Positions 16,208 to 18,228 of a DNA stretch of 64,000 bases are shown piece by piece (positions within the stretch are counted from its first letter, which is position 1; every line of letters begins with the position of its first letter). Position numbers and translations under genes: made by a program. The notes under the pieces are model-generated. The model made no database searches. It saw only the letters and a list, made by a program, of their open reading frames with translations, and was not told the DNA's origin. This stretch comes from Hymenobacter mellowenesis (GTDB lineage Bacteria > Bacteroidota > Bacteroidia > Cytophagales > Hymenobacteraceae). The stretch lies in contig NZ_JAUQSX010000005.1 of the NCBI RefSeq assembly GCF_030581005.1, positions 248,001 to 312,000 of the forward strand, read 5' to 3'.

Positions 16208-16783
16208 CTACAGCAGCCGGAACCCCATGCGGTGGTGTGGGGTAGGGCCGTGCATGCGGATGGCGTCGCGGTGTTGCGCTGTGGGGTAACCCGCATTTTG
16301 CTCCCAGCCATATTCGGGAAACTCAGCCGCCAGCGCGGTCATGTACTCGTCGCGAAACGTTTTAGCTAGCACCGACGCGGCGGCAATGTGCCGGTACAGG
16401 CCGTCGCCCCCGATAACACAGGTGTGTTCGTATCCGGGTAGCGGCCGAAATCGATTGCCGTCTACCAGCAGATATTCGGGCCATATTGCTAGCGCTGCTA
16501 CGGCCCGGTGCATGGCCAGGTAGCTGGCCTGCGCAATGTTAAGGCTGCTGATTTCGGCTTCCGACGCCTGGCCTACGGCCCAAGCCACGGCTTCGTCGCA
16601 AATTTCGGGGCGCAAGGCTTCACGACGTTTAGTGCTGAGCTGCTTGGAATCGTTGAGGAAGCGCGGGCTGAAATCGGGTGGCAGAATGACGGCGGCCGCG
16701 AAAACGGGTCCCGCCAAGCAGCCGCGCCCGGCTTCGTCGAGGCCGGCTTCGAGCACAAAACCGGAATAATTAGCAAGCAGCAC
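16208..16783 (-). CDS. rnhB: Ribonuclease HII
   Basis: RNase HII cuts RNA in RNA-DNA hybrids, including single ribonucleotides left in DNA. The N-terminal metal-binding motif is [14 protein letters not shown], giving the Asp-Glu pair, and a third Asp is in LLVDGNRF. The C-terminal HHRMGFRLL is also typical. I chose the GTG at 16783, which yields 191 residues beginning [13 protein letters not shown]. The in-frame ATG at 16822 lies inside the terminator hairpin 16798-16850, so translation from there is unlikely. Confidence 0.92.
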
Positions 16784-16797
16784 GGATAAAAATAAAA

Positions 16798-16856
16798 AGA
16801 GCGGTGAGCAAATCAGCCCCAAAGTAAGGGCCTGGTTTGCTCACCGCTCTTTTTTG
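16798..16856 (-). terminator. Bidirectional terminator between the small acidic gene and rnhB
   Basis: The arms 16798-16812 and 16836-16850 pair perfectly over 15 bp. A T-run follows on the plus strand and an A-run precedes it, so both strands carry a T tail. On the minus strand it ends the small gene at 16868-17116. Confidence 0.88.
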
Positions 16857-16867
16857 CGGGTGGCGGC

Positions 16868-17116
16868 TTAGTGGCGGCCGGCGGTGCTGCCTTCGTCCAA
16901 AGGGTCGGTTTCGCCGCGGCGCTGGCCTTGGCTATCGCGCGGGCCTTCGTCAATTTCGGAGTCTTCGTCGGTGGTCACGTATTCGTTCGTGACGGGGCCG
17001 AGGCCATTGGTGTTTTGGGCCAGGTCGGCTTCGGCCTGGGCGTGCTTGAGGTTGAAGAGCGGGTCGTGCTCGTCCTGTTTGGAATTCTGGTTGGGCTTCG
17101 AATTGGACTGGGCCAT
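16868..17116 (-). CDS. Small acidic, probably disordered protein of unknown function
   Basis: An 82-residue protein with no recognised domain. It is rich in Asp, Glu, Gln, Asn and Ser, has few aromatic or large hydrophobic residues and no signal peptide or membrane segment, so it is probably unstructured and cytoplasmic. It is accepted as a gene because it has its own ATG, ends shortly before a strong terminator and lies between transcription units, and because no better frame covers the region. A predicted non-coding RNA ends about 105 bases upstream of its start. Confidence 0.55.
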   Translation of the reverse strand: MAQSNSKPNQNSKQDEHDPLFNLKHAQAEADLAQNTNGLGPVTNEYVTTDEDSEIDEGPRDSQGQRRGETDPLDEGSTAGRH

Positions 17117-17221: not shown

Positions 17222-17253
17222 AAAAAAGGCCGTCGCACTTGTGCGACGGCCTT
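17222..17253 (-). terminator. Terminator of the predicted non-coding RNA
   Basis: AAGGCCGTCGCAC (17226-17238) pairs perfectly with 17241-17253. On the minus strand it is followed by TTTTTT. Confidence 0.85.
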
Positions 17254-17360
17254 AAAGTGGCGGGTCCGGCTTAGAGGTGTCTACCCCACCTTTTCAGCCA
17301 GAGCGCCGCCGCACGAGAGGTCCTTCCTTTCCACATTTCCAGCCCGTGCGGGGGTACTTA
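17222..17360 (-). ncRNA. Predicted structured non-coding RNA, about 140 nt, family unknown
   Basis: A minus-strand transcript is predicted from about 17360 to 17222. It has a full Bacteroidota promoter just upstream and ends in a perfect 13 bp hairpin with six T residues. The body folds into two domains. The first is closed by CCGCACG/CGTGCGG around a purine-rich loop containing GGAAAGGAAGGACC. The second is a nested set of helices GGCGG/CCGCC, GGCT/AGCC and GGTG/CACC. No open frame with coding character fits. I compared it by eye with 4.5S SRP RNA, tmRNA, RNase P RNA, 6S RNA and common riboswitches and could not match it. As the terminator separates it from the downstream gene, an independent small RNA is more likely than a riboswitch. 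Confidence 0.6.
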
Positions 17361-17365
17361 TGGGT

Positions 17366-17397
17366 CAAAGATACTAGGTTGGGAGGGGGGAGCGCAA
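17366..17397 (-). promoter_or_regulatory. Promoter of the predicted non-coding RNA
   Basis: The -7 box TATCTTTG (17373-17366) is a perfect TAnnTTTG. A -33 TTG lies at 17397-17395 with 21 bases between them. This is the spacing known for the Bacteroidota primary sigma factor, and it faces away from the NUDIX gene. Confidence 0.7.
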
Positions 17398-17537: not shown

Positions 17538-18116
17538 ATGTCGCTATCTTCTGCTCCCGTTTTCGACGAAAACCACAACCCCTGGCAAACCCTCAGTTCG
17601 GAGGTTAAATACCACAACCCCTGGATTTCGGTGCGCGAAGACCAGGTGCTGAACCCCGGCGGCGGACGCGGCATCTACGGCGTGGTAAGCATGAAGAATA
17701 AGGCGCTGGGCATTATTCCCGTCGATGCCGAGGGCAACACCTGGTTGGTGGGCCAGTACCGCTACACGCTGAACGAATATTGCTGGGAGATTCCAATGGG
17801 TGGCGGCCTCATTGAGCTGGATATTCTGGAATCGGCCCAGCGCGAACTGAAGGAAGAAACCGGCCTGCTGGCTGCCCGCTGGACGCGCATTGCCCGCATC
17901 CACACCTCTAATTCCGTCACCGACGAGGAAGGCTTCGTTTTTCTGGCCGAAGACCTGACCCAAGGCGACGTTGAACCCGAAGAAACCGAAGACCTGCGCC
18001 TCTGGAAGCTGCCGCTGGCCGAAGCCGTGCGCATGTGCATGGACGACCGCATTACGGATGCCATCAGCGTGGCGGGCCTGCTGAAGGCCGAGCGGCTGTT
18101 GGCGGCGCGGAAGTAG
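17538..18116 (+). CDS. NUDIX hydrolase, ADP-ribose pyrophosphatase-like
   Basis: A 192-residue NUDIX protein. The ATG at 17538 is preferred because the 87 in-frame codons before it overlap the non-coding RNA and its promoter. The order is an N-terminal beta region (YHNPWISVREDQVLNPGG), a core strand (GIIPVDAEGNTWLVGQYRY) and a NUDIX box ending RELKEETGLL. The strand and surface layout match ADP-ribose or nucleoside-diphosphate-sugar pyrophosphatases, which clear reactive nucleotide metabolites. The box is slightly irregular: where the consensus has Glu eight residues before the Arg of REL there is Leu, with acidic residues on either side. The metal-binding EE pair is intact, so activity is likely. 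Confidence 0.85.
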   Translation: MSLSSAPVFDENHNPWQTLSSEVKYHNPWISVREDQVLNPGGGRGIYGVVSMKNKALGIIPVDAEGNTWLVGQYRYTLNEYCWEIPMGGGLIELDILESAQRELKEETGLLAARWTRIARIHTSNSVTDEEGFVFLAEDLTQGDVEPEETEDLRLWKLPLAEAVRMCMDDRITDAISVAGLLKAERLLAARK

Positions 18117-18134
18117 AACATCACCAATGAACCT

Positions 18135-18218
18135 CATGCAGCGCGCAGCGAAGCATCTTGCCCGCCACCAGTAATTAATTGGGTGGCGCGGTAAAGATGC
18201 TTCGCTGCGCGCTGCATG
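18135..18218. repeat. Intergenic palindrome, family A (copy 1)
   Basis: Arms 18135-18159 and 18194-18218 are perfect 25 bp inverted repeats with the family core GCAGCGAAGCATCTT. The outer end reads CATGACGTT on the right only. It sits between the NUDIX stop and the plsC-like promoter. Confidence 0.9.
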
Positions 18219-18228
18219 ACGTTTCGCC

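Follow-up and report, generated by a model that had tools for sequence, protein, structure and literature searches.

An uncatalogued small RNA family of Hymenobacter that probably represses stress and envelope genes by base-pairing

The RsaE/RoxS RNAs of Firmicutes act on the ribosome binding sites of many mRNAs through one conserved single-stranded motif, which is C-rich and directed against purine-rich Shine–Dalgarno sites, and in CsrB/RsmZ RNAs GGA motifs are exposed in hairpin loops. Bacteroidota make little use of Shine–Dalgarno sites and, to our knowledge, few trans-acting small RNAs (sRNAs) have been assigned a predicted regulon in this phylum outside gut Bacteroides. The FopS sRNAs of Bacteroides thetaiotaomicron form a multicopy paralogous family of ~65 and 70 nt RNAs with canonical promoters and a 5′ seed; they repress PUL/SusC genes, binding near the start codons of several mRNAs and repressing translation (PMC11697453). 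The same report describes GibS, also of B. thetaiotaomicron, as a trans-acting RNA with two seeds (R1 and R2) that targets translation initiation regions (PMC11697453).

The locus described here lies in a Hymenobacter genome (G000) and was analysed within a stretch of 64 kb, referred to as the window. On comparative evidence it almost certainly encodes a real sRNA gene, and this RNA belongs to an uncatalogued family that is present across most Hymenobacter species and falls into a known class of regulator. The family resembles FopS in its occurrence in Bacteroidota, its multicopy paralogues, its canonical promoters and its binding, predicted here, near the start codons of several mRNAs, and it resembles GibS in its predicted trans action at translation initiation regions (PMC11697453). 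It differs from FopS in its length of ~139 nt, its two hairpins, the position of the seed in an internal hairpin loop and its other predicted targets, and from GibS, a Bacteroides RNA with two seeds and other targets, in being a Hymenobacter family; both distinctions are drawn from the published descriptions. As in RsaE/RoxS, one conserved single-stranded motif is predicted to serve many mRNAs; unlike in RsaE/RoxS, a purine-rich loop faces pyrimidine-rich leaders. GGA motifs lie in exposed hairpin loops, as in CsrB/RsmZ; unlike those RNAs, the Hymenobacter RNA has few such motifs, occurs where no CsrA was found and has complementary mRNA sites instead. The features of the transcription unit are as follows.

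17395..17397, minus strand: promoter −33 element TTG, 21 bases ahead of TATCTTTG (from sequence)
17366..17373, minus strand: promoter −7 element TATCTTTG (TAnnTTTG; from sequence and family comparison)
17222..17361, minus strand: predicted sRNA transcript of ~139 nt (from the fold and a covariance-model match; start placed a few bases past −7)
17309..17351, minus strand: hairpin P1, with a purine-rich seed in its loop (predicted fold; covariation)
17319..17340, minus strand: putative antisense seed GGAAAUGUGGAAAGGAAGGACC, within the loop of P1; its core is UGGAAAGGA (from unpaired probability and complements before start codons)
17259..17307, minus strand: hairpin P2, with conserved apical GURGGGURGAY, here GUGGGGUAGAC (predicted fold; covariation)
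17226..17253, minus strand: intrinsic terminator hairpin of 12 bp with loop CAAG, followed by a T run (from the pair listing)

The original prediction, of a likely new structured small RNA on the minus strand, had named a −33 TTG, a 21-base spacer and a −7 box, and all of these can be read on that strand (TTG at 17397–17395, TATCTTTG at 17373–17366). We take this −33/−7 arrangement to be the promoter type of Bacteroidota. The −7 motif TAnnTTTG is found upstream of 91 of 92 distinct family copies, ending 29–34 nt ahead of the loop core TGGAAAGGA, against a background in the 64-kb window of 0.0058 per 60-nt stretch. The folded body of about 105 nt with two helical domains appears as hairpins at ~17351–17309 and ~17307–17259. 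The terminator was correctly described as a perfect stem with a run of T residues; its stem comprises 12 pairs, not the 13 first given. Judged by its sequence, the locus is thus an independent gene that carries a promoter and an intrinsic terminator of its own, as is characteristic of trans-encoded base-pairing sRNAs. The 145-nt unit has a folding energy of −63.7 kcal/mol, compared with −50.4 (s.d. 3.75) for 200 shuffled sequences, none of which equalled it (z = −3.55), and a covariance model recovers the window copy at G000:C22:265223–265364 (window 17223–17364) with 173 bits.

Alignment of homologues from other Hymenobacter genomes, by which the predicted structure could be judged, shows that the helices covary. 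Among 30 sequences, double-sided changes occur in 17 of 38 pairs (7.3 ± 1.5 in shuffles) and 98.7% of cells are paired, a value that falls to 39–59% when the partner is slid; the main helix of P2 has such changes at 7 of 11 pairs and the terminator helix at 7 of 12. For 50 diverse bodies the corresponding figure is 19 of 21 pairs (13.5 ± 1.6), with 84.4% of cells paired, and in P1 all 10 pairs show double-sided changes, with 84.5% of cells paired. This conservation puts the RNA unit well outside what chance would give.

The 92 distinct bodies were gathered by requiring TGGAAAGGA and the loop-2 motif, with identical bodies dropped, and the invariance of these cores among them is therefore by construction. 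Accessibility was computed on the same copies: the loop-1 core UGGAAAGGA has a mean unpaired probability of 0.82, and exceeds 0.5 in 91 of the 92, whereas the remaining positions of the RNA have 0.31. A conserved, accessible seed, typical of this sRNA class, is thus provided by UGGAAAGGA, in copies that were collected by requiring that core. In the 79 copies in which the loop-2 core was found, its unpaired probability is 0.69. Loop 2 (GURGGGURGAY) is a second conserved loop in all family copies read, with group-specific variants. As a second seed it shows no excess in an 864-kb sample of the genome of origin, where offsets 68 and 72 gave 3 and 2 hits in untranslated regions (UTRs), compared with 4.2 and 1.5.

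The family is distributed across the genus. By blastn, the RNA was matched in 29 of 101 Hymenobacter genomes, although in G033 the match covers nothing but the terminator. A covariance model built from the 30 sequences (model R1), with which searches did not require the loop cores, matched 102 of 120 Hymenobacter genomes at E ≤ 0.01; about 93 of these are confident and 9 are weak (best E > 1 × 10−5) and may be terminator-only or diverged. Since model R1 includes the terminator, low-score matches are often to the terminator alone and were not counted as copies; matches with a near form of the core were inspected, and a few low-score loci (such as L141–L147 and L149) lie outside that inspection. 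Several Hymenobacter genomes carry 2–4 copies. Outside the genus, 12 genomes among 200 of the bacterial family matched the same model, all weakly (best E = 3.4 × 10−4). A second model, R2, applied to 241 genomes of the order, matched 13 Hymenobacter genomes, and strong matches were confined to the genus; it also matched 21 other genomes of the order (best E = 3 × 10−4), of which 11 were read by eye; none of the 11 had a promoter, both loops and a terminator, and they look like chance matches. A loose 17-base pattern scan returned at least 118 stretches, and of the 80 tested with model R2, 12 carry the RNA at E ≤ 4 × 10−21, all from Hymenobacter, so that the RNA is also present in named species of the genus. 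The family was not matched in the plasmid and phage collections searched.

The expectation that the RNA was new has held. Neither in the 64-kb window nor in 20 loci that carry members of the family did any Rfam 15 family reach its gathering score, the best sub-threshold matches (18 bits against thresholds of 41) look like chance, and a title-level search of the Hymenobacter and Cytophagales small-RNA literature, together with Rfam 15, found no earlier description. The fold, the genus-wide conservation and the covariation likewise support the original reading of a structured small RNA gene.

What the RNA does is suggested by the complements of its first loop. We consider it likely, from the sequence comparisons that follow, that it is a trans-acting antisense regulator that pairs through loop 1 near start codons. 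Across 120 genomes, the exact complement CCTTCCTTTCCAYWW occurs at 36 places outside RNA genes, compared with 13 for the reversed pattern, once places that coincide with sRNA copies are dropped, including L457, which proved to be an RNA copy. One of the 36 is the site in the genome of origin that prompted the idea. Of the 35 that are left, 23 were judged by eye to lie 5–22 nt before the start codon of an open reading frame (ATG, once GTG), a count that has no matched null and in which several reading frames open far upstream, making their start codons uncertain. A fixed gene caller placed 15 of 36 sites (L457 in, the G000 site out) before starts no more than 40 nt away, whereas permuted 15-mers in 864 kb of the genome of origin gave 16 of 140 hits (11%) by the same caller (P about 4 × 10−6, although P values here assume more independence than related genomes have). 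The count by eye exceeds that of the caller because the caller misses several genes of unusual composition. Complementary sites thus lie at the translation starts of genes located elsewhere, as is typical of this sRNA class, and by the count of the caller they exceed the 11% null; the own-genome sample alone shows no such excess. Some loop-1 complements lie instead just before an intrinsic terminator hairpin (L440, L443, L444 and L436 (second sites), and L308), and these are possibly 3′ UTR or sponge sites.

In the genome of origin there are seven places with CTTCCTTTCCA, the loop core read as its reverse complement, and one of them is the RNA itself. Two of the six others are ~20 nt ahead of a well-supported reading frame: L313 precedes a gene for a 71-aa hydrophilic protein, with a predicted perfect pairing of 19 nt, and L307 precedes a gene whose product is presumably alcohol-dehydrogenase-like. 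The site at L311 was left out of the targets, as only a short reading frame lies downstream. Allowing 0–2 mismatches, the 15-mer has 13 places including itself, compared with 18 for the reversed control, so that it is the placement and not the number of sites that stands out; 6 of the 12 non-self near-complements overlap an ATG or lie up to 19 nt ahead of it on the sense strand (P about 1 × 10−3).

The pyrimidine element might instead be a DNA operator or a general element of translation whose complement in the RNA loop is coincidental, which we regard as improbable. Such a coincidence would be favoured by the C/T-rich composition of 5′ regions in general (they are ~60% pyrimidine, which raises the background to 11%), by the sites that precede terminators, and by the 864-kb sample of the genome of origin, in which loop 1 is not singled out. 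There, 15-mer hits in UTRs numbered 0 of 1 at two mismatches and 1 of 14 at three (permuted mean 1.4), the 11-mer core had 3 of 14 against 3 of 11 for its reverse, so that neither pattern stands out, and a scan of the whole sRNA gave 10 UTR hits for loop 1 against 4.5 permuted, with windows at offsets 0, 48 and 60 exceeding the permuted values by a larger factor. A coincidence would, however, have to place the core exactly in the exposed loop of a covarying hairpin. It would also have to account for a group-specific extension that fits the loop of that same group: CATTT, complementary to the loop of the window group, is found at 11 of 23 sites where the genome has that loop, and at none of the 12 sites in genomes with other loop types (Fisher P = 0.005). 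Finally, the 27 genomes with no or only a weak RNA match (best E > 1 × 10−5) hold no complementary sites, although one of these nominally ‘absent’ genomes, G030, holds a diverged copy of the RNA.

Pairing through loop 1, our preferred reading, yields a set of predicted targets that recur between genomes. These are genes for YflT/DUF2382 proteins (G195, G076, G069 and G095), MKTTKILL-type secreted proteins (G098, G037 and G081), cold-shock proteins (G098 and G081), an MKRKW lipoprotein (G195 and G037), the 71-aa protein (G000 and G070) and UDP-galactopyranose mutase (Glf; G000 and G024, both at two mismatches). Pfam domains on predicted targets comprise DUF2382 (with YflT just below the cut-off), TROVE, Ferritin_2, DUF4142, CSD, Tll0287-like and GLF, and there was no Pfam match for the 71-aa protein or for a 255-aa protein. 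Predicted perfect pairing extends over 20–21 nt in G195, G098, G037 and G081; for genomes of group 2, the match between a site and the loop of the same genome is limited to 10–15 nt. At L437, a gene with a TROVE domain (Ro60-like) has a 14-nt loop complement 17 nt ahead of its ATG.

Duplex energies of the predicted targets exceed those of nearly all 641 UTRs of the genome of origin, a comparison that is circular, as most targets were picked by complementarity. A non-circular test used orthologues of the 71-aa protein found by protein search: 30 loci were obtained, 21 of them with the loop type of the window, and exclusion of G000 and G070, which had also been found by complementarity, left 19. 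Ranked by duplex energy against the 641 UTRs, ten of the 19 fall in the top 10%; the UTRs that equal or exceed them number 0 in G086, 2 in G037, 7 in G076, 15 in G098, 16 in G048, 36 in both G081 and G084, 48 in G036, 55 in G022 and 60 in G069. Next come G197 (66) and G095 (83), and the remaining seven show no notable pairing (178 in G012, 228 in G156, 241 in G163, 301 in G093, 422 in both G011 and G052, and 568 in G047). A chosen subset of 10 orthologues had given 8 strong cases, compared with 10 of 19 for the full set. From this split between 10 and 7 of the 19, pairing at the 71-aa gene is conserved in only part of the group, and the result slightly lowers the odds that we give to loop-1 pairing. 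The 71-aa hydrophilic protein itself (L314 in G000, orthologues L315–L343) is matched in 109 of 120 Hymenobacter genomes, and in G000 its gene comes after a 167-aa hydrophilic reading frame.

The RNA probably switches stress and envelope genes off by base-pairing. In the mechanism we propose, a housekeeping-type promoter would drive a transcript of ~139 nt that would fold into two hairpins and a terminator, with the rigid P1 hairpin presenting a purine-rich single-stranded loop around RUGGAAAGGAAGG. Loop 1 would then pair with CCUUCCUUUCCAY(AUUU) elements ~5–22 nt upstream of start codons, and this cover over the initiation region would keep ribosomes from binding, so that a set of stress and envelope genes would be translated less. 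The comparison itself shows the RNA gene, its fold, the exposed loop, and complementary sites that are enriched and placed ahead of starts; that the RNA is expressed, that it pairs in this way and that any protein helps it we infer, and the position of the sites and the precedent of FopS suggest translational repression rather than activation as the outcome.

With this family, a model, a seed and a few targets that can be tested are at hand in Hymenobacter, a genus noted for tolerance of radiation and desiccation. A bolder extension, which we offer tentatively and think rather unlikely, is that the RNA serves the whole genus as a master sRNA, in several copies in some genomes, and recognizes a pyrimidine element of leaders that is dedicated to it. 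It would in this way coordinate how Hymenobacter responds to stress and desiccation and manages its envelope (through YflT/DUF2382, cold-shock, hydrophilic, ferritin-like, TROVE/Ro60 and DUF4142 proteins), with seed and leader co-evolving by clade. If true, such a master sRNA would act as a general switch after transcription in a phylum where Shine–Dalgarno sites are hardly used.

Both loops are GGA-rich (UGGAAAGGA and GGGUGGA) and exposed, as they would be if the RNA sequestered an RNA-binding protein in the way that CsrB/RsmZ sequester CsrA/RsmA. We hold this to be quite improbable, since CsrA exceeded the PF02599 cut-off in 0 of 29 genomes (19 of them Hymenobacter, including the genome of origin), the RNA has two loops only and not many repeated motifs, and sequestration would leave the complements close to start codons unexplained.

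The surroundings of the gene bear on whether it acts in cis. The conserved neighbours in the window are as follows.

16208..16822, minus strand: RNase HII gene rnhB, as we take this reading frame to be (cluster C0, found downstream of the RNA at 68 of the 92 loci)
16868..17116, minus strand: 82-aa hydrophilic reading frame (MAQSNSKPNQ...), downstream and outside the RNA (cluster C4, 53 loci)
17544..18116, plus strand: divergent gene, presumably for a NUDIX hydrolase (start chosen by eye; cluster C1 in 66 of 92 loci)

The 82-aa reading frame has no Pfam match. At 64 of the 92 loci the RNA is flanked by the NUDIX gene and the RNase HII gene, and the 22 loci with neither gene are paralogues elsewhere. 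A second conserved copy of the sRNA is located 105–141 nt downstream of a lysA-like gene, presumably lysA, in six of the non-syntenic loci (L081, L095, L098, L114, L120 and L126). That the RNA is a housekeeping RNA (SRP or 6S) or a cis-acting leader or attenuator of the downstream gene is suggested by its size near 140 nt and, in the window, by the position of its own terminator ahead of a same-strand gene; we judge this very improbable. The gene that follows the RNA is encoded on the other strand in 15 of the 22 non-syntenic copies, and the RNA is therefore not a cis-acting leader; a riboswitch or attenuator would have a same-strand gene directly downstream in all copies, and the family does not, in keeping with the first impression that the arrangement is not riboswitch-like. 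Nor is it SRP RNA, to which it could not be matched by eye in the original prediction either: the one SRP RNA match in the genome (RF00169, over the cut-off) is at G000:C23:69002–69099, and there is none at the RNA locus. The 6S model RF00013 had no match anywhere in the genome and none in a Bacteroides control either, so that the search leaves 6S standing by sequence; 6S RNA has a rod shape, which the two-hairpin shape here does not resemble.

A micropeptide gene starting at NUG GAA AGG (MER...) is barely credible and was rejected, for although ATG (37), GTG (54) or TTG (1) precedes GAA AGG in 92 of 92 copies, this frame starts inside a hairpin loop, keeps GAA and AGG in all 92 with no synonymous change (the copies being gathered by this core) and is 8 to 29 codons long in the 81 copies where it stops, while 11 remain open to the terminator, which agrees with the initial view that the RNA has no convincing coding frame.

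Two further structures in the neighbourhood were noted by eye. A long hairpin (GAGCGGTGAGCAAA...TTTGCTCACCGCTC) at window ~16795–16850, between the 82-aa reading frame and rnhB, is probably a terminator, and a long inverted repeat (ATGCAGCGCGCAGCGAAGCATCTT...) lies at window 18134–18219, between the NUDIX and acyltransferase genes.
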